Under the pieces are notes generated by a model, which saw only the letters and a list, made by a program, of their open reading frames with translations, did no database searches and was not told where the DNA came from. From positions 1 through 52,396 of the IMG/VR virus record IMGVR_UViG_3300028840_001414: a stretch of DNA of 52,396 nt. One strand, given 5' to 3'. This DNA is from a virus. Shown piece by piece: positions 12,333 through 41,395 of this stretch (the stretch's first letter is position 1; the number at the start of each line of letters is the position of its first letter). The translations under genes and the position numbers were made by a program.

Positions 12333-12606
12333 GCTCCGAATGCCGCTGACGTTTTGCAAGAAGCCTACCACTGGTGGTCGAAAAAAGAAAAAGAAGACTC
12401 TTGAGGCCGTTGATTCGTGCGACAACTGCGGGGCGCCGCTTGGCAGGGAGTGTGTGCGTTCTTACGGCTCGGCCGTATGCGCCGTCAGTGACGGTATACA
12501 CGTCGCGAGATTCAGCGACGGTGAGGCTCTGAAGCCGCATTTTTTTTGTTCTGCGGAATGTAAACTGGCATTTGCTGCCGACTGGCAGCAAACGCACTTA
12601 TTCTAA
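12325..12606 (+). CDS. 93-aa zinc-finger protein
   Basis: ATG 12325 overlaps the previous stop by 8 nt and has GGAGAG upstream. After a very basic segment (GGRKKKKKTLEAV) comes CDNCGAP, a beta stretch with further Cys, and FFCSAECKLAFAADW, a YHS/MYM-like treble-clef ending. Likely nucleic-acid or protein binding. Lies between the candidate small terminase and the protease. Confidence 0.7.
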   Translation: MPRLRMPLTFCKKPTTGGRKKKKKTLEAVDSCDNCGAPLGRECVRSYGSAVCAVSDGIHVARFSDGEALKPHFFCSAECKLAFAADWQQTHLF

Positions 12607-12616
12607 GGGGGCTGCC

Positions 12617-13492
12617 GTGAAGGAAAGTAGAGTATGGTTTTGGTTGCTTTTGTTGGCTTTTGCAACATTTTTGTCGTCGATCACGTATGGCGGCGAGGTT
12701 GTGCAGAACGTATACGAGAACACTGTCATCATTACAGACGGCAGCGGCCACGGCTCCGGGGTCTTGTTCACTCGCGATGGTCGCACCTTCGTCTGGACGG
12801 CTGCCCACGTCGCCGACATTTTCATGCAGCCTGACGGCTCGTTTCGGGACGCGACGATCCGGCAGGGCGAGAAGCGCGCCGTTGCTCGCGTGCTCCGTGC
12901 CGGCGATTACGAGACCGATACGGACTGCGCGTTGCTGGAGATCATCAGCGGCGACAAGATGGAGGGGGACGCACGGTTCTACCGCGCTTTCGATGAAGTG
13001 AAGCTCGGCCAGGAGATCATCGTCTGCGGGACGCCGCTTGATATTGAGTGGAACGAGCGGCTTGTGTCGTTCGGTCGATTTTCGGCTATCGACAGGTTGT
13101 GCGACGGATACCCGCTCCTGAAGGCCCGCCGGCTCGATTTCGTGGACATTACCGCGTACCCCGGTAACTCAGGCGGCCCGGTGGTGGACGCGAAAGACGG
13201 CGGGATCGTTGGCCTGCTGGTGATGGGCTCGCAGCCGAGGCTCCTCATTATCGAGCCGACGCGCAACATTTACGAGTGGGCCCGTAGTCACGATTGTTTC
13301 TGGGCCTTCGATCGATCGGTTCCGATGCCTGATTCGATCTATCCGTGGCCTGGCGATTTGCACGTCAGAGAGTGCCGGGAAAAAGCGGACTCTCGCGGCA
13401 GCGAATGGGGTAGCTCCCCACCGCAAGAGAAGGCCGCTAGACGCCGGGGGATTCTCGACATTATCATTGAAGCGATCTTCAACGCTGCGTAG
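12617..13492 (+). CDS. exported trypsin-like serine protease
   Basis: 291 residues from GTG 12617 (AAGGGGGC upstream, 10 bases after the previous stop). An N-terminal signal segment (WFWLLLLAFATFLSS) is followed by a chymotrypsin-fold protease with the full catalytic triad: His in TAAHVAD (~64), Asp in TDTDCALLE (~101) and Ser in GNSGGPVV (~184). GSGVLF and the glycine-rich GTPLDIEW turn match DegP/S1-type enzymes; no PDZ domain follows, only a basic tail. A secreted endoprotease between terminase genes is unusual. It could act on envelope proteins at lysis or entry, or on virion proteins if the leader is not an export signal. Confidence 0.85.
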   Translation: MKESRVWFWLLLLAFATFLSSITYGGEVVQNVYENTVIITDGSGHGSGVLFTRDGRTFVWTAAHVADIFMQPDGSFRDATIRQGEKRAVARVLRAGDYETDTDCALLEIISGDKMEGDARFYRAFDEVKLGQEIIVCGTPLDIEWNERLVSFGRFSAIDRLCDGYPLLKARRLDFVDITAYPGNSGGPVVDAKDGGIVGLLVMGSQPRLLIIEPTRNIYEWARSHDCFWAFDRSVPMPDSIYPWPGDLHVRECREKADSRGSEWGSSPPQEKAARRRGILDIIIEAIFNAA

Positions 13493-15386: not shown

Positions 15387-17114
15387 ATGGCGTCGGTGGC
15401 ATTTTCGGAAAAGAAGTTCGGCAGGCTGCATGACAGCATCCAGTGGTCGGAGAGGCAGCTTGAAGTTCATCGCAAGAAGCGAATCGAATCAATCAATATG
15501 ATGCTTGGCGCGCACTATGCGGAGAAGGAGAACAAGCGCACTATCATTAACAGCCTGAAGATGGCTGTTGATATTTACGTGCGAACGCTCGTGCCTTGTG
15601 TGCCGCGAGCAATGGTGAGTTCCAAGAATATGCAGTTGAGATCGATCGCGCAAAACCTGGGGCTTGCTCTCGATCAGATTCCGGATGAAATTGATCTTGA
15701 AGACACCCTTCGTGATTTCGTGACGGAAGCCCTGTTTTCTATAGGGGTTATTAGGGTCGGGCTTCATACGGTTGGTGAAGCAATGGGGCTACCATACGGC
15801 GCTTCTTACGCTGACTGCATTACGATGGATGACTACTTCCTGGATATGTCCGCTAAGAAGGCGAATCAGATACAGTACGAAGGAAATTCGTACTGGATGG
15901 ATTTTGACAAGATCAAGGATGCGGACTGGATTATCAAAAAAGCTCGCAAAGACCTGAAACCTGACGAGCACAAGGTTATCGGGGTCAATGGTGAGGAGCG
16001 GGCCGAGGGTATTGCAACGTCTGAATCGGCTGAGGTCTTCAGGGATCGGATATGGTTGCGCGACGTGTGGGTTCCGGATGAAGGGTTGATTGTTACTTAC
16101 GGCGTCACGAGCAAGAAAATCTTGAACGTCATCGAACGAGATGGCCCCGGTAAGAGTCCGTATATCAAACTTGGATTTTCCAAGGTTCCCGGCAATTTGC
16201 TGCCGTTCCCGCCTGTCTCTGTTTGGCGTGATCTGCACGAACTCGGTAACGCGATCTATCGCAAGTTGGCCAACCAGGCGGATTCCGAGAAAACTGTTCT
16301 CGGTTTTTCCGGGGACGATGAAGGTGCTACGAATTTCAGGGACGCCAAGGATGGGGACGGGATTAAGTATACCGGCACGGAGCCAAAGAAGTTGACTGCC
16401 GGCGGAATCAATCAGGCTACATTGGCGTTTTCTCTTCAGAACAATGGGCTTTTCTCGTACTTCTCTGGCAATATCGATTCGCTCGGTGGGCTTTCGGCTA
16501 TCACCGAGACTGTTGGCCAGGACCGGCTTCTCAGCGAGGCGGCCGGCGCGCAGATGCGAGACATGGGAGGGATGGTTTCCAAGGCTTACAGGAAGGTGTT
16601 TCGTTCCTTGGCTTACTATGAATGGAATGATCCGATCAAGCGCCGGACCCTGGAGAAGCCGATCGAGGGAACTGACATTGTGGTTCCGACCGCATGGGGC
16701 CCTGATGCGAAGCGGGGTGATTTCGAGGATTACGACATAGATATTGACGTGTACTCGCTCCAGGATAACACGCCAAGCGTGAAGCTCCAAAAGCTAGGCG
16801 CGATCACGCAGAACTATATCATACCGATGGAACCAATGATTTCGGCGGCCGGTGGAACGATCGACGTGCAGGCGATTTTGCGTGACGTTGGGAAGTTCTC
16901 TGGTATGCCGGAGATCGAGGAATACGTGGTATTTATGGAGCCGGAGAATAAGGATCAGCAGGTCGCTCCCGCCTCTGCGCCGGCCAACACAACTCGCACT
17001 TACGAGCGGGTCGGAAAGCCGGGGATGACCGACAAGGGCCTGGCTAATTCCATGCAGCAGACGCTTCTCTCGCAGGCGCCGCAGGGCTCCGGGGCCGATC
17101 AGGGGGGCGGCTAG
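15387..17114 (+). CDS. portal protein (head-tail connector)
   Basis: 575 residues from ATG 15387 with GGAGG seven bases upstream. Portals form the 12-fold ring through which DNA passes. Supporting features are the position right after TerL, the size, an N-terminal helical region, RTLVPCVPRAMVSS, the long alpha/beta core with SVWRDLHELGNAIYRKLANQ and the LSAITETVGQDRLLSEAAGA stretch, and a Pro/Gln-rich disordered C-terminus. The overall layout resembles podovirus connectors more than SPP1/HK97 portals. Function inferred mainly from context and size. Confidence 0.85.
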   Translation: MASVAFSEKKFGRLHDSIQWSERQLEVHRKKRIESINMMLGAHYAEKENKRTIINSLKMAVDIYVRTLVPCVPRAMVSSKNMQLRSIAQNLGLALDQIPDEIDLEDTLRDFVTEALFSIGVIRVGLHTVGEAMGLPYGASYADCITMDDYFLDMSAKKANQIQYEGNSYWMDFDKIKDADWIIKKARKDLKPDEHKVIGVNGEERAEGIATSESAEVFRDRIWLRDVWVPDEGLIVTYGVTSKKILNVIERDGPGKSPYIKLGFSKVPGNLLPFPPVSVWRDLHELGNAIYRKLANQADSEKTVLGFSGDDEGATNFRDAKDGDGIKYTGTEPKKLTAGGINQATLAFSLQNNGLFSYFSGNIDSLGGLSAITETVGQDRLLSEAAGAQMRDMGGMVSKAYRKVFRSLAYYEWNDPIKRRTLEKPIEGTDIVVPTAWGPDAKRGDFEDYDIDIDVYSLQDNTPSVKLQKLGAITQNYIIPMEPMISAAGGTIDVQAILRDVGKFSGMPEIEEYVVFMEPENKDQQVAPASAPANTTRTYERVGKPGMTDKGLANSMQQTLLSQAPQGSGADQGGG

Positions 17115-25120: not shown

Positions 25121-27460
25121 ATGGCGAAGAAGCGCGAACTGCACGTACCGTTTCCGCTTGCTGGACTGAACCGTAGCGGCGCTTACCGACAGCAGCCGCC
25201 GTATTCTTCGCCCGATATGCTGAATGTTCGCGGCGCCGCCGCGCTCGAAAGACGCGAGCGCGGCGGTAGCCGGCCAGGGCTTGTGTATTCGCACGATGAT
25301 GATATTGGATCGAACGTGCGAATGCTCACTACAATGACGCTGGCGCTGGGTGATAGCTTTACGATTTGGTCTGACACGTTCGGCGGCTCGTCTCTTGCGT
25401 CCGCCTGGACGCAAGCCCCATGGGCCAGCGCTGTCCCTAGCGTGCTTCCGTCATCACTCGTATCCGTGGATTACACCACTTCCGAGGGCGAGGTTGTTGC
25501 GGATGCGCTGACCATTGATACGTCGCAGCCGTACACTGTAGAAATGTTCCTGGCCCCGTGGGCCGGCGCGTGGCATGGTGCGTATCGCTTGTATTTGAGG
25601 CTCGACGATACCACACCGGCCTACGCGACCGATGGCGTGTTCATTGAGCTAGTGGCAACGGGCTCGACTGGCGCCTACACGGCTTCACTGAAGTCGTATA
25701 CCGGCTCTGCCGAAACGGTGGTGGCTACTGCCGATAGCACGCTCAGTGTCGTGTACCCCGGCTGGTTATCTGCCACTGTTAGCGGCACCACGGTTACGGT
25801 GTACTGGTGTGGCACGCAGATTCTCACTGGCACCGTGGATGCGCATGCAGGCACTCGCGTCGGCTTCGGGATGAACTGCACGGTGGCCGCTGGTCTCTGT
25901 TTATGCAATGTGTTCCGTGTGCAGTATTACTCAACCGGCAGTGTACCCGCGCTGCGGACACAGTTGATCGCGTCGGCCGGTGGCGATCTCTACAAGGAGG
26001 GGCCATACGGCCAGCTTTCCGTTATATCGTCAAACCTCACTGTTCGCAGCGATGTGCCGCTCATGGCGGCGCAGAGCGGGCAGAAGCTATACATTGCTGA
26101 TTATGGCGATCTGCGTGACACTGGCACGGACGGTACGGTGTCGGGGAGCGACCTGGATGATGGGGGCGGGCAGGATTGGACGACGCTGGGGATCGATACC
26201 GATTCTGATGTTTGTGTAATCTCAAATGTAGGAGGAGACACTGTTGCTGGAACTTACGGGATTGCCTCAGTTGCCGTCGGAGCACTCACGCTGTCTTCGG
26301 CGCCTGGCGATGGAACCTGTTCGTATCGCATTGAACGAGCGCCGAAAGTGTATGACCCATCGACAGATACTATCGCTATCCATAGCGCCACCGCCGGAAA
26401 AGGCCAGGTGCCTACGGGTTGCCCATTAGTCTCCCGATGTTTTGGGCGAATCTTCTACTCCGGGGCTGAGATTGCACCGCACGCCTGGTACGCGAGTCGC
26501 CAGAATGACGAAGACGACTTCGATTACTCGCAGACCGATTCTCAGCGGGCAATCGCCGGTACGGCCAGTGATACCGGCGTTCCCGGCGATCCGATTATTG
26601 CGCAGATTACACACAGCGATGACTACCTGATTTTCGGATGCCGTGATTCGCTGTGGAGGATGGCCGGCGACCCGGCCTTTGGCGGTGCGCTCGACGCGAT
26701 AAGTCGCACCGTGGGAATCATCGGCCAGAACGCTTGGTGTATGGGGCCTACTGGCGAGCTAATTCTTTTGTCGCTGAATGGTCTGTATGCGATCGCGCCT
26801 GGTGGCAATTCCTACCCGATTCCGCTGTCGGAGGAACCGCTGCCGACTGAACTTCGGAACATTGATCCAAATACATATGCGATCTCGCTGGAGTACGATG
26901 TACCGGATCGTGGTGTTCATATTTACCTGACGCCCGAATCATCGAATACGCGCATTCATTTCTGGTTTGACTGGGATAGCAAGACGTTTTGGCCGCTAAC
27001 GCTCACGGCGAACCATGAGCCTACGGCTACCTGCGCGATGCAGGGTACGGCGATCGAGGATTCTGGCGTTATTCTCGGCTGCCGCGATGGCCGACTCAGG
27101 CGATTCAGTAACCTTGCCGGCAATGATTGTGGCACGGCGTTTTCGTCGTATGTGGTTATTGGCCCGATTCCGCTAGCAAAGGATTCGTATGTCGGGTCCG
27201 TCGTGTCGATGGAAGCCGTTTTAGCAGAGAATAGCGGCAACGTGACGTGGACGCTGCACCCGGCATTAACGTATGAGCTAGCGGTTAGCGCGTCGGCTTC
27301 TGACACGGGTACTTGGGTTGCGGGGCTGAACGACACGAACCATCCGGCGTGCCGTGGCCAGGCGTGTACGTTGAAACTTACTGGTGCGTCTCATACGCGA
27401 TGGGCGTATGAACATACATTGATTACTACAAAAGAAGCTGGCAGAAGGCGGAAGCAGTAG
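25121..27460 (+). CDS. tail nozzle/stabilisation-type structural protein
   Basis: 779 residues from ATG 25121. The start KKRELHVPFPLAGLNRSGAY and the segments MLNVRGAAALERRERGGSRP and later GRIFYSGAEIAPHAWYAS, IFGCRDSLWRMAGDP and GPTGELILLSLNGLYAIAPG describe a large beta-propeller-like protein of the kind that forms the distal tail tube of podoviruses. A laminin/lectin-like beta insert lies at ~75-250 (TIWSDTFGGSSLASAWTQAP). A YGDLRDTG-type repeat is visible near 330. Function by context and fold impression only. Confidence 0.65.
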   Translation: MAKKRELHVPFPLAGLNRSGAYRQQPPYSSPDMLNVRGAAALERRERGGSRPGLVYSHDDDIGSNVRMLTTMTLALGDSFTIWSDTFGGSSLASAWTQAPWASAVPSVLPSSLVSVDYTTSEGEVVADALTIDTSQPYTVEMFLAPWAGAWHGAYRLYLRLDDTTPAYATDGVFIELVATGSTGAYTASLKSYTGSAETVVATADSTLSVVYPGWLSATVSGTTVTVYWCGTQILTGTVDAHAGTRVGFGMNCTVAAGLCLCNVFRVQYYSTGSVPALRTQLIASAGGDLYKEGPYGQLSVISSNLTVRSDVPLMAAQSGQKLYIADYGDLRDTGTDGTVSGSDLDDGGGQDWTTLGIDTDSDVCVISNVGGDTVAGTYGIASVAVGALTLSSAPGDGTCSYRIERAPKVYDPSTDTIAIHSATAGKGQVPTGCPLVSRCFGRIFYSGAEIAPHAWYASRQNDEDDFDYSQTDSQRAIAGTASDTGVPGDPIIAQITHSDDYLIFGCRDSLWRMAGDPAFGGALDAISRTVGIIGQNAWCMGPTGELILLSLNGLYAIAPGGNSYPIPLSEEPLPTELRNIDPNTYAISLEYDVPDRGVHIYLTPESSNTRIHFWFDWDSKTFWPLTLTANHEPTATCAMQGTAIEDSGVILGCRDGRLRRFSNLAGNDCGTAFSSYVVIGPIPLAKDSYVGSVVSMEAVLAENSGNVTWTLHPALTYELAVSASASDTGTWVAGLNDTNHPACRGQACTLKLTGASHTRWAYEHTLITTKEAGRRRKQ

Positions 27461-30144: not shown

Positions 30145-30172
30145 GGGCCCTCAACGTAAGTGAGTATTGATT

Positions 30173-30769
30173 ATGGCGTTTTTGGGAACTAGGCGCGGTG
30201 TTTCGACGACTCAGGACCAATACGGTCAATCGTCGAGTTCATACGATCCTGGCGCAGCGTTGCAACAGCAACTTGCGCAGGAACAGTGGGACTGGCAGAA
30301 GCAGATTTACGGCGCGCAAGCCAAGGCAGCCAGGCAAGGGGCCGCCGGGCTTACTGGCATGATTGGCCAATACAACCAGGCTTACGGCGCCGCGAAGGAC
30401 GCTAACGAACGGCGATACCAGGAAATGCTCGGTATTACCGACCAGACTACCGGGCAACGGATGGCTGATATTCGGCGTGATTATGAGGGGCAATCCGCCG
30501 ATGCTATGCAGCAACTCTCCCGGCTCGGCCTGGCCAACACAACGATTGCCCCGACGATGAAGATGGGTGTGGAGCGTGAGAAACAAGCATCACTTAATCG
30601 GGCCGCCGATGCACTCCAGGGTACGAAGCTCGGCATTATGGAGCGCCGGACTGACGAGTATCCGAAGTCTGATATTATCTTGCAGCTAGCGCAGATGCTT
30701 GGCCAAGGTGGCGGTGGCGCTGGCGTCGGCGGGATTGTGAATGCCCTTAGTAACATGCGACTAGGATAA
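30173..30769 (+). CDS. ejection/internal virion-type protein
   Basis: 198 residues from ATG 30173. After a short basic start it is Gln- and Ala-rich and strongly helical (GAALQQQLAQEQWDWQKQIY, AKAARQGAAGLTGMIGQYNQ, AMQQLSRLGLANTTIAP) and ends in a glycine-rich loop. This composition is usual for podovirus ejection proteins that line the path for DNA, such as P22 gp7-like or T7 internal core proteins. The following two genes have the same character. Confidence 0.6.
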   Translation: MAFLGTRRGVSTTQDQYGQSSSSYDPGAALQQQLAQEQWDWQKQIYGAQAKAARQGAAGLTGMIGQYNQAYGAAKDANERRYQEMLGITDQTTGQRMADIRRDYEGQSADAMQQLSRLGLANTTIAPTMKMGVEREKQASLNRAADALQGTKLGIMERRTDEYPKSDIILQLAQMLGQGGGGAGVGGIVNALSNMRLG

Positions 30770-31859: not shown

Positions 31860-34800
31860 ATGCCAGTTAGCCAGGAAATCCTCTCGATGATTGAGAGGGG
31901 CGAGCGAGATTTGGCCAACAACGCGCCAAAGCTCGACGAAGAAGTTGCCCTCGCGGTCAAGCAGGCCGACGAGCACGCTAAAGCTCGTCGTGATCTCTTG
32001 CGCGAAAAGTATGCCTGGGGCTTGGTTGCGCCGCTAAAGGGTACTCGGCTGGACTACGCCAAGAAGGCTATCCGGGAAGTTAAGGATCACTCCGAAAGGC
32101 AGTGGCTCGTAGAGGAAGTGGCGCGAATCGCTAAATCGCAAGAATGGTCACAGCGAAAGAAGTACAGTGAATCGGGCTATCTCGGTCGCCTTGGTAGCGC
32201 TGCGCAGAAGGTTGGTGGCGCCTTTGCCGAGGGCGGCACCGGCATGGTGGAGGCGCTGGACGACTTGCGAAAGCTGGCGCACGGCAAGGGTCGATCCGCT
32301 GAGGATGTACGGTTCCTACAGGCGCTCGAAGCCGCAAAGCGTGCCGAGAACCCGTTCTCTTCCGAGGCTCCCGGCCTGGCCGGCAAGGCGGCGACAGGGG
32401 CGGCCGGCATGGCGCCGGACATGGCTGCGGGGCTCCTGGCTTTACAGACCGGCGGGCCAAAGGCTGCTTTTGGGTATTGGGGCGCCCGGATGGCGCCTGA
32501 GCGAATCGAGGGATACAAGGGAATGGGTGTGCCCGCTCCGGTTGCTGGCGCGGCTGGCATCGGGACTGCGGCGGCCGAGGGTGCTATCGAACTTCTTAAT
32601 CTCGATCCGACTGGCCTGACCAAGCCTGTTGCTGAGCCGGCAAAGAAGGCGATTCGCCAGGGTGTTAGGTCATTACTCAATAGGGCTATCGGCGAGGGGG
32701 CCGCCAAGCAGGGGGCGAAGGAGCTTGTCAAGAAGTTCGGTGGCGAGGCAGTCAAGAACGCTTTGAAGCACCCGGCTACTAAGCGTGGCATTAGCGCCGC
32801 CGGTAGAGCAATGGAGCGTTTTGTTCTGGAGGGCGTGGAGGAGGGTCTTCAGGCCGAGGTAGAGACTGGGGGGCAATATCTAGCCGCCAAGGCATACGAG
32901 GACATACCCGATATTCCCGCGAAAGCGATCGGGGAGGCCGGGATAGAACAGGGTCTCGGGGCGCTGCCTGGATTGGCGGTACTCAGTGGTGCCGGCGGCG
33001 CCGTGGACGTGGCGCAATCCGTAGGCCAGGCAAGGACGCGCGTAAAGCGATTTGCCGAAGGGGCAGAGCACGCAAAAGTGCAGTCCGAAATAGTCGCCTT
33101 TGCCGACCGGGGGCATACCCCATCGGTTGCAAAATGGCAGGAATGGGGCCTCAAGGAAGAGGAGGGGATGAATCGGAAGCGCCGTCGCGAAGCCACTCAA
33201 GAGCTTGCGGAGGCTTACCGCGAAATCGAACAGATGCGATTCGCCTTTAGTGGTGTGACGCCAACTGCCGCGCAATGGAAGGCTCTCGGCTTACCGGAGG
33301 AGGCTGGCAAAACAGAGGCGGATCGTAAGTCGTACCTTGCCGAGAAATTCCTTCCCGAATCCCCACGGCAGGCTGAAGCTCCCGTTGAGGAGCAGCCGGC
33401 TGCTCTTGCGGGGGAAACCCAAGCGTTGGAAGCGAAGGCAGCCCGTGGTGTTGCCCCTGCAACCCATGATTTTCCAGTCGAGATGGAGGGAACCGGGGAG
33501 CAGATTGGTGGTCGCGAGGTCGTTCGGCAGTTGGAACAAATCTGGGGTACGCCACTCCGTTTTGGCCGGCTCGGCAAGCATAAGGCGCGTGGTATCTACA
33601 AGCTGAAGTCTCGTGTTGCCAGGCTCGCGAAGGGCGAGGAGGCATCACCGGCCGTGCAGATTCACGAAGCTGTCGGACACCATTTAGATGAAACGACAGA
33701 TATTCTGAAATCCGCCCCCGCAGACGCGAAGCAAGAAGTCGGTAAGCTGGATTATGATGCAAGCAAACTGCGAGCCGACGAAGGCTTTGCAGAGTTCGTT
33801 CGCGCCTATCTTACCGGGGGGACCGAACGATTCGCGAACGGGATTGACTTGAAGACCGAGGCCCCAAAGTTCCTGTCGCACTTTGAAGGCTGGCTCGAAG
33901 AACACCCTGAAGTGAAGGCGAAGATGGAGGCTAGCCGCGAGCCTTTGCTGGCCTTCAAGCAGGCCGGTGCGGTTGGGCGAGTGAAGGGACAAATTAGCAA
34001 GACTGGCATAGATCGCGGAAAGGCGGCCCCGCTTCGTGACAGGCTCAATAAATGGAAAGAACACCTGTATGCGCGGGTCAAAGAGGAGGGTCGGCCAGTC
34101 AAGCGATTCGTCGATGAGGCGCGGCAGCTAGGCTATGACCCCGAAGGCGAGACGACACCCTTTGAAGACTACAACGCTTTGCGGCAGGTGGGCCCGCACT
34201 TTGCCGAGAACGCGATTGAGCACGGTGTATTCACGCTTACGGGCACCCCTGAGAAGATTGGCCCGTCGATGTACGAGGCGCTAGCAGAGGTTGAGCCGGG
34301 CGAAGACTACGAAAACTTCATAGCGTGGGCATACGCTAACCATGCCATTGAGTCCTGGGGCGAGGAGAAAGACCCTGGCATTACTCTTGCAGATGCCAAG
34401 GAAGTAGTGTCGCGGCTAGGTAATTCGCGCTATGAAAGTGCTGCCGCGAAAGTGACGGAGTTCAACAATGCGTTAATCAATGTGCTGGCCGATGCCGGTG
34501 TTCTTGATGCCGAGGCGGCAGAGAGGATCGTTGCGTCTTACGAAACATACATTCCACTCGAACGCGCGAGGGAGGGCTCTCGCGGCGGCGGTGGTCGCCG
34601 GATGCTCGATCTGTCGAGCGCAATTAAGGGGCGGCGCGGCAGCGGATTGCAGATCGTCGATCCTATCGAATCGACGCTTGCCCGCGCAACCCGGTTGTAT
34701 GAACGAGCCGCACAGCAGCTTGTAATCAATAAGCTGGTGCAAGTCGCCGCTGACGTAAAGGGTCTCGGCGGGTGGGTTGAGGAAGTGCCCCCGAAGGTTC

Positions 34801-36788
34801 TGGCGACGAAGTTTTCTTTTGAAACGATCAAGCCGCAACTCGAAGGCTTGGATGAATCACTTGGGATTGACGTTGAACATCTCCTCGAAGACATAGACCC
34901 CGAGACGATACTGACCGTATGGCGCCCTGATCTTATGAAGGTGCATGGCGTCCCCATTTACAGGGTCACGCTGGATGGGGAGTCCCGGTTCTTCCAGCTA
35001 GACCCCGATCTCGGTGACGCGCTCGGTGGACTTGAAACCGTGCAGCATCTTGATCCGGTGACTCATATCATGCGCGCCGTTACCGGCCTGATGAAACGAG
35101 GCGCCACGAGGCTCAATCCCGATTTCATACTGTCGAACGCGATACGAGATTGTGACGCCTTCCTCCTGCAAGGAGAAAAGGGACTTAAAGGCGCCTTCGA
35201 TCCGGCGCAATACGCTGCGGCCTACGTGTTCTCGGAAATGCAGGCCATGAAGGGCGAAAAGGGCGTACCGGAAGTCGAGCTATTCAAGCGCATGGGTGGC
35301 GAGCTTTCGACGTATGCCGGTCTCGACAGGCTCAGGCTAAGGCGGGGCGCCCGTCGTGCGGTGCATGGCCGGCAAGGAAAGCTCGCTACAACATCGAACG
35401 TGGTTGGCGTTACCGAAGTGGCGCCGCGAATTGCGGAGTTTGCTGCGATCCTGGAGCGAGAAGGCTGGCTCGATAGAGTCAGAGCCGGCGAGACGCCGCC
35501 GATGGAAGTGCTAATTCGCGCGATCAACGCTGCCCATGACGTGACGATCGATTTTCGGCGCATGGGAAAATGGGGTCGGTATATCAACTACTATGTCCCG
35601 TTTTTCAATGCACGGGTTGAGGGTCTTGATAAATTCGTGCGCACATTCAAGGATCACCCCGGCCGTTCGACCTTTCGTGCGATGAAATACATCGTATTGC
35701 GATCGTTCATCTACTGGTGGCTGCGACACGACGACGACGACTACAAGGAACGGCCTGCCTGGCAGGATAATTTTTACATCTTCAAAGACGGTGAAGGTAA
35801 TCCGGTATGGCGTGTCCCCAAGCCGCAGGAGTGGGGGCTAATCGGCAGTGGTATCGAACGAATGCTCGACGCCATGTACGAGCGAGACCCGGAGCCTGTC
35901 GCACGGTGGTTCGGGCAGGTATTTTCGACTATCAATCCTGGCGTTTTCCCTGCTGGTGTTACGCCCCTTGCTGAATCACTTGCAAATTATGATTTTTCGT
36001 TTCGGCATCGGGAAATTGAATCAAGGTCTCTTCGCCGACTTGAGGCGCCGGATAGATACTACGACCATACAACGGGTGTGTCTAAGGCTGTGGCTCGTTT
36101 GTTGCATAAGGTAAGCGGCGGCAGCATTAAGTTTGGTCCGGCGAAGATCGATCACCTTGCGGACGGATTGCTTGGCGGGCTGTACGGCAAGATCAATGCT
36201 CCGTTCGACAAGCTGTACCGGGGTGGCGAATGGAGCGCTAGCGATATCCCCGGACTGAAGGGGCTGACGCTGCGGCAGGATTACGCGAGGAGCATCGATG
36301 ATTTTTACTCGCGCAAGGAATCACTTAGCAAGATCGCCGAATCAAAAAAGCTACGCGGCGAAATAGACGAGGAACATGCTGCCGAGTTTCGTCGCATACA
36401 ATACGCCGAAAGCCTCATGTCGGATATACGCAAAGCCATTAAGGGCCTCCCGGCAAAAGAGAGGAGAGAGGGCAGGCTGGCGATGATCGGCTTAGCGCGG
36501 GCAGCGCTGGGGCGGGAGCCGCTTGAAAGGTATCCTAACCCGATCGCTAATCCTGATGCAGTCCCCGCTGCCGCGCGTGGTGCGCTGGTGAAACATATCT
36601 CCCAGAAGGCAATTACCGCCTCCGGTAAGCTAGGGGTCGAGAGAACCGAACGTGCTGCGGAATATCTCCGTGCGATGGAGGCTGATCGCGATGTGATTTC
36701 AAGTTCAGTGTATGACCGGCTGCGCGTCCAGGGATTCCGCTCGACGACTGCGAGAGAGCGGCAGATGCGGGCAATATCGAGCTTGTAG
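31860..36788 (+). CDS. giant polyvalent-type internal virion protein (1642 aa)
   Basis: The largest gene. Residues 1-~480 are helical, with hydrophobic Gly/Ala segments around GATGAAGMAPDMAAGLLALQ (~175-200) and VAGAAGIGTAAAEGAIELLN that could insert in membranes. At ~600 is VQIHEAVGHHLDE, an HExxGHH-like metal site reminiscent of metallopeptidases. From ~1070 the TGLMKRGATRLNPDFILSNA segment matches, in my recollection, the large-polyvalent-protein-associated LPD38-type domain of phage and plasmid proteins, followed by FRRMGKWGRYINYYVPFFNA. Such proteins enter the cell with the DNA. No transglycosylase motif was found. Confidence 0.75.
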   Translation: MPVSQEILSMIERGERDLANNAPKLDEEVALAVKQADEHAKARRDLLREKYAWGLVAPLKGTRLDYAKKAIREVKDHSERQWLVEEVARIAKSQEWSQRKKYSESGYLGRLGSAAQKVGGAFAEGGTGMVEALDDLRKLAHGKGRSAEDVRFLQALEAAKRAENPFSSEAPGLAGKAATGAAGMAPDMAAGLLALQTGGPKAAFGYWGARMAPERIEGYKGMGVPAPVAGAAGIGTAAAEGAIELLNLDPTGLTKPVAEPAKKAIRQGVRSLLNRAIGEGAAKQGAKELVKKFGGEAVKNALKHPATKRGISAAGRAMERFVLEGVEEGLQAEVETGGQYLAAKAYEDIPDIPAKAIGEAGIEQGLGALPGLAVLSGAGGAVDVAQSVGQARTRVKRFAEGAEHAKVQSEIVAFADRGHTPSVAKWQEWGLKEEEGMNRKRRREATQELAEAYREIEQMRFAFSGVTPTAAQWKALGLPEEAGKTEADRKSYLAEKFLPESPRQAEAPVEEQPAALAGETQALEAKAARGVAPATHDFPVEMEGTGEQIGGREVVRQLEQIWGTPLRFGRLGKHKARGIYKLKSRVARLAKGEEASPAVQIHEAVGHHLDETTDILKSAPADAKQEVGKLDYDASKLRADEGFAEFVRAYLTGGTERFANGIDLKTEAPKFLSHFEGWLEEHPEVKAKMEASREPLLAFKQAGAVGRVKGQISKTGIDRGKAAPLRDRLNKWKEHLYARVKEEGRPVKRFVDEARQLGYDPEGETTPFEDYNALRQVGPHFAENAIEHGVFTLTGTPEKIGPSMYEALAEVEPGEDYENFIAWAYANHAIESWGEEKDPGITLADAKEVVSRLGNSRYESAAAKVTEFNNALINVLADAGVLDAEAAERIVASYETYIPLERAREGSRGGGGRRMLDLSSAIKGRRGSGLQIVDPIESTLARATRLYERAAQQLVINKLVQVAADVKGLGGWVEEVPPKVLATKFSFETIKPQLEGLDESLGIDVEHLLEDIDPETILTVWRPDLMKVHGVPIYRVTLDGESRFFQLDPDLGDALGGLETVQHLDPVTHIMRAVTGLMKRGATRLNPDFILSNAIRDCDAFLLQGEKGLKGAFDPAQYAAAYVFSEMQAMKGEKGVPEVELFKRMGGELSTYAGLDRLRLRRGARRAVHGRQGKLATTSNVVGVTEVAPRIAEFAAILEREGWLDRVRAGETPPMEVLIRAINAAHDVTIDFRRMGKWGRYINYYVPFFNARVEGLDKFVRTFKDHPGRSTFRAMKYIVLRSFIYWWLRHDDDDYKERPAWQDNFYIFKDGEGNPVWRVPKPQEWGLIGSGIERMLDAMYERDPEPVARWFGQVFSTINPGVFPAGVTPLAESLANYDFSFRHREIESRSLRRLEAPDRYYDHTTGVSKAVARLLHKVSGGSIKFGPAKIDHLADGLLGGLYGKINAPFDKLYRGGEWSASDIPGLKGLTLRQDYARSIDDFYSRKESLSKIAESKKLRGEIDEEHAAEFRRIQYAESLMSDIRKAIKGLPAKERREGRLAMIGLARAALGREPLERYPNPIANPDAVPAAARGALVKHISQKAITASGKLGVERTERAAEYLRAMEADRDVISSSVYDRLRVQGFRSTTARERQMRAISSL

Positions 36789-36792
36789 CAAG

Positions 36793-36834
36793 GTGGCTGG
36801 AAAGAAAGTTCGCAAAACTGAGTCTTGGTATAAT
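36793..36834 (+). promoter_or_regulatory. phage promoter of the GTGGCTGG class, copy 3
   Basis: GTGGCTGG (36793-36800), five bases after the polyvalent gene stop, is followed after exactly 28 nt by TATAAT (36829-36834) with TGG before it. It should start RNA near 36841 and drive the lysis/envelope block. Confidence 0.75.
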
Positions 36835-36871
36835 GAAAGGTGCTGTGCAAGTTCTTCGTTCGAGATTTTCC

Positions 36872-37426
36872 ATGCATGATTCTCTGCATAGCGTCCAACC
36901 GGGCGACGTAATCGGTTTCTCCGGTCGTAGCTGGCTAAGCGCTGGTATCAATATCAGTACATTTGGCATTCCCTTTTGGGGGATTAGTCATGTCGGAATT
37001 GTTGGTTACGCCCATCAGGCGCTGCCGTCGTACTCACTGTTCGAGAGCACGGGAAAAACCGGCGTGCAGAGTCGCAACTTTGACGAGGCCATTATGGATT
37101 ATAACGGTCGCGTCTGGTTATATCAATTGTCACGGCCGCTGTTCCTGCATGAGATGACGCGGCTTATGAGGCGACTGAAGGGGCTGGAGGGGCGCCCGTA
37201 TGACGTGCCTGGTGCCGTTCGGGCCGGCGGGGCGATCTGGTCGCTTATTCAGGCAGTCGCACGCGGCGAAGACCTAACGAGTCTGTTTTGCTCGGAGTTT
37301 GTTGCTGAAGTTCTATCGTACATCGGTATTTTCCCGACCGCTAACGCGAGTCGATGGAGCCCGAATCATCTGGTCCGCAAGCTGCGGCGCATGGGAATCG
37401 TAAACCCACCAATGAGGTTGAAGTGA
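36872..37426 (+). CDS. permuted papain-fold (YiiX/NlpC-like) enzyme, lysis candidate
   Basis: 184 residues from ATG 36872. The upstream in-frame ATG at 36833 overlaps the promoter -10 and would not be on the transcript, so it is rejected. The order of motifs is that of circularly permuted NlpC/P60-like enzymes: QPGDVIGFSG, then GISHVGIVG with the catalytic His (~40), FESTGKTG, and SLFCSEFVAEVL with the catalytic Cys (~140). Such enzymes cleave peptides or amides; in phages they can be endolysins. First gene after a dedicated promoter, it is the best endolysin candidate here. Confidence 0.75.
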   Translation: MHDSLHSVQPGDVIGFSGRSWLSAGINISTFGIPFWGISHVGIVGYAHQALPSYSLFESTGKTGVQSRNFDEAIMDYNGRVWLYQLSRPLFLHEMTRLMRRLKGLEGRPYDVPGAVRAGGAIWSLIQAVARGEDLTSLFCSEFVAEVLSYIGIFPTANASRWSPNHLVRKLRRMGIVNPPMRLK

Positions 37427-37953
37427 AGAGAGCCCTTGCTGTATTACTGCTGTGTGTCACATGCGGGTGTACGCCTAGCCGCACACCCGTAATCGAGCGT
37501 CCGGCCGTTAACGTGCCGATGGCCTTTCGTCAGCGCAACTACACCGACAGCGGCTCCTGCGTCCACGCAACCCTTATTACCCTGCTTCGGTGGCAGGGTC
37601 GTGTAAGCGATGCGAACCGTTGGCGTCGTGACTTCCAAGGCGGTGAGTGGGCTAGTTCGTTCGCGCAAAAGCTGGACGGCAGGGGGATACGTTACGCATA
37701 CGTCACTAACGGCGGCGTGCCGTTTCTTGAGTGGGCTTGTTCAACCCGGCGCGGGTGCGGCATTACCGTCAAGGGCGGCGCACACATGGTCGCGCTAGTT
37801 CATCTTGACGACAAGTGGGCAGCAATCCTTGACAACAATGATGTATCGAAATTTACCTGGATTCCACGCGAGACACTAATCGCTGAGTGGAAGGCCAGTC
37901 ACGGTTGGGCTGTTACGCCAGTGTACTCGCCAGCGGCGCCGTTGCCCTGGTAA
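37423..37953 (+). CDS. exported C39-like cysteine peptidase, probable lipoprotein
   Basis: 176 residues from GTG 37423, overlapping the previous stop (GTGA). The N-terminus is an export signal ending in a Cys (MKRALAVLLLCVTCGC); the lipobox is not strict, so lipid attachment is probable rather than sure. The mature part has YTDSGSCVHATLITLLRWQG with the nucleophile Cys46, KGGAHMVALVHLD with His121, and AILDNND with the third residue, the pattern of C39/papain-like peptidases. With the permuted papain enzyme before it, this suggests a two-enzyme attack on the cell envelope. No ABC transporter domain is present. Confidence 0.75.
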   Translation: MKRALAVLLLCVTCGCTPSRTPVIERPAVNVPMAFRQRNYTDSGSCVHATLITLLRWQGRVSDANRWRRDFQGGEWASSFAQKLDGRGIRYAYVTNGGVPFLEWACSTRRGCGITVKGGAHMVALVHLDDKWAAILDNNDVSKFTWIPRETLIAEWKASHGWAVTPVYSPAAPLPW

Positions 37954-37977
37954 ACCTGTTCAGAAAGAGAGGAAGAA

Positions 37978-38706
37978 ATGTTGAGAGAGTTTTTTAGGGT
38001 GCTCTTAATTGGGGTCGCTCTTGGCTTAATTTTCTGTGGAACATTCGTTGTCATGTCGTCTCTGATTTCTGCGTGTTATGCCGCAGAGGTAACTACAGAG
38101 GAGCGCGTGATCGATCTTCCCCAGGACTCCGAGAAGTGGTTCGTTAGTGTCGTCGGCGATGCGGAAGACCCGCAGTTCCAGGCGGTCCTGCAATGGTTCA
38201 ATGAAGACGAGAAGCTGAAAGACCTGAAGGGTGCAGTTCACTTTTGGAAGATCGCCAGCAACAGCACGGCCTACGAGACCCGGTACAAGCACAACGTCAA
38301 AGGGCTCCCGACTGTGCGGATTCAGGAGGCGAGCGGCGCCGTTATCTATGAGGGGGTTGGCGAGCAGATTCCGGCATCGGCCGATGATTTGTACCGAGAG
38401 ATTTCGGATTCGTCTACTGGCCGAATTATCAACTGGCCGATCTTGAACCGGCCGATCCTGCCGTGGCGCCGTCATATCGAAAGAGAGAGAAATCAGCAGC
38501 CGTCCCCCGCTCCGTGCCCCGGCCCCGACTGTGCCCCCGTGCCGCCTGATCCCACGGTGCCGCCCCTCAGCGACGGTGGCCCGCCTCAAATGGATTCCGG
38601 GCCGTCTGCGGGGCTTGTGCTCGCTCTGTCGATCTTATCGCTGCTTGGCGGCGGCGCTGGCGGGCTTATCTCCCAGTGGCGGCGCACCTATCGCACGGAT
38701 GGCTGA
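37978..38706 (+). CDS. exported thioredoxin-fold protein without redox Cys pair
   Basis: 242 residues from ATG 37978 (GAGAGGAAG upstream). An N-terminal signal or membrane segment (FFRVLLIGVALGLIFCGTFV) is followed by a thioredoxin-like domain: EKWFVSVVGDAEDPQFQAV, helices, VHFWKI, and KHNVKGLPTVRIQEASG with the cis-Pro-type turn. The CxxC active site is missing, so it is not a redox enzyme. A Pro-rich stalk and a C-terminal transmembrane segment (GLVLALSILSLLGGGAGGLI) follow. It resembles exported planctomycete-virus proteins as I recall. A role in lysis or in the envelope is likely from position. Confidence 0.65.
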   Translation: MLREFFRVLLIGVALGLIFCGTFVVMSSLISACYAAEVTTEERVIDLPQDSEKWFVSVVGDAEDPQFQAVLQWFNEDEKLKDLKGAVHFWKIASNSTAYETRYKHNVKGLPTVRIQEASGAVIYEGVGEQIPASADDLYREISDSSTGRIINWPILNRPILPWRRHIERERNQQPSPAPCPGPDCAPVPPDPTVPPLSDGGPPQMDSGPSAGLVLALSILSLLGGGAGGLISQWRRTYRTDG

Positions 38707-38746
38707 TCGTTACGAATTCCAGTTTTCCCTAGCAAGAGAGGTTTGC

Positions 38747-39157
38747 ATGAGTTTTCTCGAAATCGCTTTGTTGTGTATTGTTGGTGTCGGTGGTGGGTGG
38801 GGTATAGTCTCGTGGCTGTTCAAGAAGGATACCGCCCGCGAGGAGCGCCGGCGCGGCGCGGCTACGCTGGCCACTTCGTTATCTGGGCTCGGCTTCAAGA
38901 AGCTGCCCGAATTTCTGGTGGACTACAGCGTAGGCGACTACAGCGCCATGGCTCACAAGATCAAGTCACTGGCCAGCCTGTTTGTCGGCGGTGAGGCCGG
39001 CGTGATGGTCGAGTTCGAGAAGGTCTTTGACAACCTGCTGAGCGCCAAGCTGAAGTCTGAGACCGGCCGCTCGCTAATCGCAGCGAAGCTTGCGGACGCC
39101 GTTGAGGAGCGGGATGCTTCGGCTATCAAGTCTGCCCCGATGGCGAGCGTAAAGTAG
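38747..39157 (+). CDS. small membrane-anchored protein, holin candidate
   Basis: 136 residues from ATG 38747 behind AGAGAGG; the overlapping frame starting at 38531 is rejected. One transmembrane segment (FLEIALLCIVGVGGGWGIVS) is followed by a basic stretch and amphipathic helices (LVDYSVGDYSAMAHKIKSLA). A single-pass N-anchored protein in the lysis block may be a holin or an accessory of one. No family recognised. Confidence 0.55.
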   Translation: MSFLEIALLCIVGVGGGWGIVSWLFKKDTAREERRRGAATLATSLSGLGFKKLPEFLVDYSVGDYSAMAHKIKSLASLFVGGEAGVMVEFEKVFDNLLSAKLKSETGRSLIAAKLADAVEERDASAIKSAPMASVK

Positions 39158-39166
39158 GCACTTCCT

Positions 39167-39214
39167 CCCACGGGGATTTCCGGTCAGGCGCCGGCCCCCG
39201 TGGGTTATTCTCTT
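39167..39214 (+). terminator. intrinsic terminator inside the lysis block
   Basis: Nine-base arms CCCACGGGG and CCCCGTGGG (39167-39204) with an inner CCGG/CCGG pair are followed by TTATTCTCTT. It lies just after the 136-aa membrane protein gene. Confidence 0.65.
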
Positions 39215-39224
39215 GGAGTGATTG

Positions 39225-39482
39225 ATGCAGGGCCCGAATTTCAAGAAACTGGTAATTCGCAAGATGGCTCGTGACGCGGTTCCAGATGGGGGCGGCTTCG
39301 CAGATGGCTTGCGGTTCTTGTCATCGCCAAAAGGAATCGCATCGGCTGTAAAGCGAGCAACCGAATGGGTACAGCAAGCTATAAATGCAGTAAAAGCTGC
39401 GCCAGATAATTCATTCGGCAATAATGACGAAGCGATAGCGAACGAAATTTTAAGGCAGCTTGATGACAGCCAAAGAAACTGA
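39225..39482 (+). CDS. small protein, 85 aa
   Basis: ATG 39225 (TTGGAG upstream; a TTG directly before it is less likely). Basic N-terminus (QGPNFKKLVIRKMARDAVP) and a helical C-terminus (AVKRATEWVQQAINAVKAAP). Its end overlaps the next gene start by 20 nt. Function unknown; may be a lysis accessory or virion protein. Confidence 0.6.
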   Translation: MQGPNFKKLVIRKMARDAVPDGGGFADGLRFLSSPKGIASAVKRATEWVQQAINAVKAAPDNSFGNNDEAIANEILRQLDDSQRN

Positions 39483-39750
39483 AGCCCTGAATGCCCTGCG
39501 GGCAGAGTTGGTCGCGTACCATGTAGAGGTACGTGAGCACATCGCTAGATGCGAGGCGTGCCGGTCAGACGTGGCTACCATGCACGCCGATCTGTATGGC
39601 ATTCCAGGCAACAAGGAGCACACCGGCGTCGTGGGGGAGGTTTCGGAGCTTCGCGCAAGCCGGCGTGCAATCCTGATCGGCCTGCGATGTGCGTGGGGGG
39701 TGCTAGTAGCCGTCGCAGGGGTGGTTACGACTGTACTCTTTGGGAAGTGA
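39463..39750 (+). CDS. XhlA-type coiled-coil membrane protein, holin-like
   Basis: 95 residues from ATG 39463, with AAGGCAGC upstream. A long helix (ETEALNALRAELVAYHVEVR) with two Cys (CEAC) is followed by a linker and a C-terminal transmembrane segment (GLRCAWGVLVAVAGVVTTVL). A cytoplasmic coiled coil plus one C-terminal membrane span is the layout of XhlA-like phage membrane proteins involved in lysis. It is the last gene before the terminator. Confidence 0.6.
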   Translation: MTAKETEALNALRAELVAYHVEVREHIARCEACRSDVATMHADLYGIPGNKEHTGVVGEVSELRASRRAILIGLRCAWGVLVAVAGVVTTVLFGK

Positions 39751-39768: not shown

Positions 39769-39820
39769 AGGGCCACTCAGGGGCCCGTGTAGGGCCGCCG
39801 GTTGCAGGTGGCCCTTCTTT
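39769..39820 (+). terminator. intrinsic terminator at the end of the late genes
   Basis: AGGGCCAC (39769-39776) pairs with GTGGCCCT (39808-39815), with GC-rich inner pairing, followed by TCTTTAT. It ends the rightward late transcript before the integrase region. Confidence 0.75.
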
Positions 39821-40189: not shown

Positions 40190-40234
40190 AGGGAGAGAGG
40201 CATTGATAGACTACCTTTGAGTTGGAGGCTCCAC

Positions 40235-41395
40235 ATGACACTGACTGAGCATCGAGATTGGAAGAAGCGGCACCCCGACTTTCCGCTGACTGTTCATGCG
40301 AGCGGTCAATGGTCGAAACGAGTCAAGGGGAAGGTCTATTACTTCGGCAGGCTGGATGATCGGGATGCCGCGCTAAGGCAATGGCTCGAAGAGAAGGACT
40401 TTCTCTTGGCTGGTGTCGCCCCGCCGAAGCACGGTGCCGGGATCACGGTAGCCGAGCTTTTCGAGAAGCATCTAGAAGACGTGAATTCGCGGATTGCTGC
40501 CGGCCGACTTGCCTTGAAGACACGGAAAGACTACCTTGTGCCGCCGTCACTTTTTCGGGCCGCCGGCTTGGAAGGAATGCCGGTCAGGATGCTCACCCCG
40601 ACCCACTTCGCAATGGTTGCAGACGAGCTTGAGAAATCTGATCGCACCTTGCGGACACAGAAGAACATCATCATGGCAGCCAGGGCTGTCTTTAACTGGG
40701 GCGGGCCGGAGGGAATGCAACTTTTCGACGATCGAATTAGGTTCGGGCCGCGATTCAAGCCTCCGAAATCAGATGCGATCGAAGCCGAGCAGGAGGCAGC
40801 CGGGATTGTAAGGTTTCTGGATCGCGAAGTCATCCTTGAAGCCCTCGATACCGCGAAGCCGAGGCTGAAAATTGCAATCCTTCTTGGTATCAACTGCGCA
40901 TTCTACCCTGGCGACACGATTGCCGTAGCCCGCGATCACTTTCATCTGGACGGCGAGATACCCTACCACGATTTCCGTCGCGTCAAGACGCGGCGGCAGC
41001 GCAAGGCCGTCCTGTGGCCCGAAACCGTAGCTGCCATTCGGGAGTATTGGGAGAAGTACCGCCGGCCAAAGGATAAGAGCGAGAGGCGACTGCTGCTCAG
41101 CGAGCGAGGCGAGCCACATGCGTATAGCGGGCAGGGTCGATCACTCCTCGAATCGTTTGGCCGGCTCCTGGATCGAATCGGCAATCGCATGAAGGGGGTC
41201 GGTCTCGGCTCGCTCCGGCACACCTATGCTACGGTGGTTGACTCCGTACCCGACCAAGCGATGATCGACCTAACGATGGGCCATACCAACAAGAGTATCC
41301 AGAAGCGAACCTACCGCCAACTGAATCTAGACGAGCTTGGCCGGCTGAAGGTTCTGGCCGATAGGGTTTGGGGTTGGCTGTATAGCGGAGGCTAG
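40235..41395 (+). CDS. int: tyrosine-type integrase
   Basis: 386 residues from ATG 40235 with TTGGAGG six bases upstream; the TTG at 40217 is rejected. An arm-binding/SAM-like N-terminal region (~60-160) is followed by the catalytic domain. Visible: LGSLRHTYATV with the second Arg (~326), MGHTNKSIQKRTYRQL with His (~348) and the nucleophile Tyr (~359). The usual first Arg box (TGLRxSEL) reads LLGINCAFYPGDT, so the canonical first Arg and the H of HxxR are absent; I recall this variant from planctomycete integrases. It meets the leftward operon end-on, six bases apart. Confidence 0.88.
   Translation: MTLTEHRDWKKRHPDFPLTVHASGQWSKRVKGKVYYFGRLDDRDAALRQWLEEKDFLLAGVAPPKHGAGITVAELFEKHLEDVNSRIAAGRLALKTRKDYLVPPSLFRAAGLEGMPVRMLTPTHFAMVADELEKSDRTLRTQKNIIMAARAVFNWGGPEGMQLFDDRIRFGPRFKPPKSDAIEAEQEAAGIVRFLDREVILEALDTAKPRLKIAILLGINCAFYPGDTIAVARDHFHLDGEIPYHDFRRVKTRRQRKAVLWPETVAAIREYWEKYRRPKDKSERRLLLSERGEPHAYSGQGRSLLESFGRLLDRIGNRMKGVGLGSLRHTYATVVDSVPDQAMIDLTMGHTNKSIQKRTYRQLNLDELGRLKVLADRVWGWLYSGG

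Follow-up and report, generated by a model that had tools for sequence, protein, structure and literature searches.

Phage lysis is usually described in terms of muramidases, amidases, transglycosylases and endopeptidases that act on peptidoglycan. In two-component spanins (Rz/Rz1), adjacent genes in or near the packaging genes specify a lipoprotein and a protein of the inner membrane that has an extracytoplasmic part. The gene pair C39–TRX described here, with its predicted lipoprotein and membrane partner, has this layout in common with Rz/Rz1, but its lipoprotein is a predicted catalytic enzyme and the partner, anchored at its C terminus, has a thioredoxin fold. The LysB sets of mycobacteriophages (PMC6116114) resemble the block that contains this pair in being fitted to a particular host envelope and in including a lipid-directed enzyme, in our case putatively on both counts; they differ in that peptidoglycan hydrolases are also present, and the protein families are unrelated.

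The window (the whole stretch of viral DNA analysed, 52,396 nucleotides) carries at 36872–39750 a run of genes on the + strand in the order C92, C39, TRX, TM1, o86 and TM2, followed by a terminator-like hairpin of 9 bp with a T-rich tail (39791–39815, +) that marks the end of the block, although such sites are not in excess in this region. The block lies 3′ of the last structural gene, between a large polyvalent protein, LPD38 (31860–36788, +; PF18857, E = 2.7e-24), and a tyrosine integrase (40217–41395, +; phrog_1, 7e-22; PF00589, 2.5e-4). A recurring phage promoter had been placed before the block, as the third of its kind, but the region 36789–36880 has no repeat elsewhere in the window (22 nt with 4 mismatches) and the proposal was dropped; sigma-70-like sites at the block do not exceed expectation. 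Elsewhere in the window, the gene at 12572–13489, directly 5′ of the large terminase gene (TerL), matches a phage protease (phrog_9683, 4.7e-8) and is probably the source of the one Trypsin_2 match in the whole-window scan; an ArdA antirestriction protein, a Sak4-like annealing protein, RusA and a single-strand binding protein were also found.

The first gene, C92 (36872–37426, +; 184 residues from a revised and likely ATG start at 36872), encodes a permuted papain-fold enzyme of the NlpC/P60, YaeF/YiiX-like type, as the sequence-only reading had proposed. The window protein scores below the curated cutoff of 27 bits against PF05708 (Peptidase_C92; 17.2 bits, E = 0.0056) and matches phrog_1128 at 5.6e-10, while the family profile matches the YaeF-type cysteine peptidase of PDB entry 3kw0 at 3.7e-6. 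The permuted catalytic pair that defines Peptidase C92 and YaeF/YiiX enzymes is present: His40 and Cys140 are invariant in 56 sequences. This His-then-Cys order and a similar size are shared with described members of PF05708 (BcPPNE, 3kw0; YiiX; LnsA; Tox-Act1), from which C92 differs in being phage-encoded, in the coupling of its gene to that of a lipoprotein peptidase and in its sub-cutoff Pfam score. Characterized permuted NlpC/P60 enzymes target lipid acyl groups and not wall peptides: phospholipase activity is described for Tox-Act1 (PMC12994826), fatty-acid binding for YiiX (PMC3142127) and a function in lipoprotein N-acylation for LnsA (PMC7387801). C92 is therefore better read as a putative lipid-directed enzyme than as the peptide-cleaving one first suggested, a description that fits these relatives poorly. 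No signal peptide was seen in the window protein.

C39 (37423–37953, +) starts at a GTG at 37423 that overlaps the C92 stop by 4 nt. The window protein has no match in Pfam, the C39 family included, and a sequence search of the PDB gave none; one relative matches PF13529 weakly (0.062). Its AlphaFold2 model (pLDDT 82.5, pTM 0.76), however, matches the C39 peptidases PCAT1, ComA and 3erv in Foldseek with E values down to 7.9e-5, at about 14–17% identity to the closest solved structures. Model and alignment agree on a C39-type papain fold with a Cys-His-Asp triad, and Cys46, His121 and Asp137 are invariant over 94 sequences (two rows are gapped at Cys46). A signal sequence and a lipobox-like LCVTCGC confirm the exported C39-like peptidase of the initial description; the lipobox is present in most relatives, mostly with Glu or Asp at +2. 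The fold and catalytic order are common to C39 and C39_2 peptidases (PCAT1, ComA, PF13529), but in contrast to PCAT1 and ComA the phage protein is a stand-alone exported lipoprotein without an ABC transporter. C92 as a general processing enzyme for this lipoprotein was considered and rejected because the lipobox occurs both with and without C92.

TRX (37978–38706, +) has no family match, and its fold is assigned from an AlphaFold2 model with 112 Foldseek matches to thioredoxins at E ≤ 0.001. The window protein lacks the active-site CxxC, so that its description as an exported, redox-dead thioredoxin-fold protein stands, with the correction that the hydropathy profile shows an N-terminal hydrophobic segment, a Pro-rich linker and a second, C-terminal membrane segment. 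In one prophage (L210, in genome G631) TRX has a CxxC (CHQC) at the apparent active-site position, unlike other TRX sequences. By hydropathy, TM1 (38747–39157, +; start revised to 38747) combines an N-terminal membrane segment with a charged helical domain, defined by alignment and HMM matches, and TM2 (39463–39750, +) is a short protein with a C-terminal membrane segment; the two single-span membrane proteins originally noted are thus both present. TM2 has relatives in loci L001, L002 and L016, and a protein of TM2-like size adjoins C39 in prophage L102. Neither protein matches a holin family in Pfam or PHROGs, and TM2 is holin-like in size and layout only. The small ORF between them, o86 (39225–39482, +), is an ORF call without a credible family match in Pfam or PHROGs.

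A search with C39 gave 72 loci, all on viral contigs; relatives in deposited phages and plasmids were absent except for two records at E = 0.8. We selected 51 non-redundant loci having both C39 and TM1, of which 46 contain all four genes C92, C39, TRX and TM1; with the window these make 47. Gene order and strand are identical in all 47, and the 4 nt overlap of C92 and C39 occurs in 35. Among the 51 representatives, chosen for having TM1, the TM1 HMM matches downstream of TRX in every case. Four of the five loci lacking C92 begin at or inside C39, so that C92 would lie beyond the contig end, whereas L095, with 2.7 kb of upstream sequence, seems truly to be without it. The constant order, together with the invariant catalytic residues, places the conservation beyond chance, and the block is a conserved module common to dozens of otherwise dissimilar planctomycete phages.

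The surroundings of the module vary. Most of the larger phages have the order putative small terminase subunit (called from a zinc motif and its position; its PHROGs family has no assigned function), C92, C39, TRX, TM1, a WCxxC thioredoxin lipoprotein, TerL and portal. In podovirus types (the window, L001, L002, L057, L084 and others) the module is directly 3′ of LPD38, in L102 and L108 it adjoins TerL and in L193 the C39–TRX pair is 3′ of capsid genes. The WCxxC lipoprotein gene follows TM1 in 39 of the 51 phage loci (for example L035, 4079–4426) and is lacking from the window. Inserted ORFs resembling HNH/AP2 homing endonucleases separate C92 from C39 in L050 (9444–10004), L056, L065, L078, L091, L020 and L021.

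A planctomycete host, as first suggested, is well supported because the C39–TRX pair occurs in many planctomycete prophages, one of them collinear with the window. A scan of 84,980 species, whose strict pattern was the sole coverage of non-planctomycete genomes, gave one confirmed match, a Pirellulales (Planctomycetota) MAG contig with the whole module. C39 was present in 4 of 392 Planctomycetota genomes drawn phylum-wide, in 43 of 397 from the order of this MAG and in 6 of 170 from the order of genome G402. The collinear prophage lies on a 6.96 Mb contig of G394 and carries, all on the same strand, relatives of window genes (TerL, the 575-residue protein at 15387–17114, 25121–27460 and 30167–30769), followed by an 1825-residue protein, C39 and TRX. 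Within the stretches covered, the module was not found in the G572 and G722 prophages, which have a window-like TerL. Among the 43 planctomycete loci examined, TRX adjoins C39 in all but L212 and C92 is beside C39 in nine; C92 and TM1 are absent from many planctomycete prophages. The C92-less prophages suggest that the constant element of the module is C39 rather than C92, and we judge C39–TRX to be its core. In L193-type prophages, glycosyltransferase-like genes lie 3′ of the tail genes (L223, 3257–4715; L225, 15951–18583).

No conventional lysin emerged, in agreement with the initial observation that lysozymes, transglycosylases and amidases are missing. A Pfam scan of 67 window ORFs returned 16 families, with no known lysin besides C92, and Phage_lysozyme (PF00959), Amidase_2 (PF01510), SLT (PF01464) and M23 (PF01551) were absent from all 13 phage records, window included; CHAP, canonical NlpC/P60, GH19 and Amidase_3 were covered by general Pfam scans alone. 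Four large phages gave no lysin among the Pfam matches listed, and neither did the C92-less prophages of G590 and G402 in a full list over their otherwise unexplained ORFs. A lysozyme replacing C92 in C92-less prophages was also considered; none was seen in one full list or, in another, among the matches listed (25 of 54 families). A lysin of unknown family could be encoded elsewhere in the module phages.

We propose, with a probability of about one half, that planctomycete phages use the block as a late envelope-attack (lysis) cassette instead of the usual endolysin set. A lysis role is inferred from where the block lies, from its localization signals and conserved catalytic residues and from the lack of other candidates, and an envelope role is plausible. 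Placement in late regions, flanked by terminase genes, beside TerL or after the capsid or last structural gene, favours it. C39, tethered to the membrane outside the cytoplasm, would cleave peptides of the wall, either in peptidoglycan stems or in a wall protein; TRX would scaffold or gate it from the inner membrane, C92 may act on membrane lipids or lipoproteins, and TM1 and TM2 would be candidate holins or regulators. Judged from gene content, C39 would be a better candidate than C92 for the wall-cutting step because C39–TRX persists without C92. The loss of C92 and TM1 from many prophages implies that the full cassette is not obligatory. Against lysis, C39–TRX is in an odd place among the head genes of L193-type prophages, and a wall enzyme exported in active form would have to be kept in check.

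The host wall bears on the substrate. Planctomycetes have lysozyme-sensitive sacculi and hence peptidoglycan (PMC4432640), so the sparse peptidoglycan invoked in the sequence-only reading is too strong a description; they also have cysteine-rich YTV wall proteins (PMC8567305, PMC10632474). YTV is encoded in all 20 C39-bearing genomes examined and absent from five of five arbitrary C39-free genomes. Phylum-wide it occurs in 42 of 392 genomes, including all four with C39, a coincidence with a chance of about 1e-4, uncorrected for relatedness. This co-occurrence hints at a protein-wall target. A specific form of planctomycete-wall lysis, in which C39 would cut the YTV wall, the WCxxC thioredoxin lipoprotein would open YTV disulfides and C92 would weaken the membrane, seems improbable to us; the redox-active thioredoxin that it involves is absent from the window.

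The same lipoprotein and membrane-anchored products would also suit envelope remodelling, in which a surface peptidase and its membrane partner alter the cell surface or shield it, as in superinfection exclusion or receptor removal, or aid non-lytic release. Retention of the C39–TRX pair in many prophages and the report of a chronic, non-lytic phage in a planctomycete (PMC10945688) speak for such a role. The block nevertheless lies inside late structural operons, where a separate promoter was not found, and lysis would be left unexplained as no other lysin is recognized; we regard remodelling as possible but unlikely.

Alternatively, C92, being without a signal peptide, could be a classical cytoplasmic endolysin released by a holin, with C39–TRX as an accessory, spanin-like pair. 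A lipoprotein gene beside that of a membrane protein with a Pro-rich linker recalls o- and i-spanins, and in T7 Rz/Rz1 are located between the terminase genes. We find this doubtful: C92 is missing where the C39–TRX pair persists, its characterized relatives target lipids (PMC12994826, PMC3142127) and the TRX anchor is C-terminal, unlike that of i-spanins. Least likely is a virion or DNA-delivery component, with the peptidase and its partners packaged or maturing a virion protein: podovirus types have these genes beside LPD38 and other structural genes, and L193 types have theirs beside capsid genes, but the signal sequence and lipobox send C39 out of the cytoplasm, and the block stays intact while its location shifts between genome types.

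Given the shared envelope-directed block and the lack of any usual wall-cutting enzyme among those found, the module phages probably use an unfamiliar means of opening their hosts. If the lysis-cassette reading is correct, a module without a recognized wall enzyme, present in podovirus-type phages and in larger ones that infect the same phylum, would show a route through an envelope over whose composition there have been decades of dispute. It may also provide tools for planctomycete lysis, and the module can serve to mark the host of uncultivated phage contigs.
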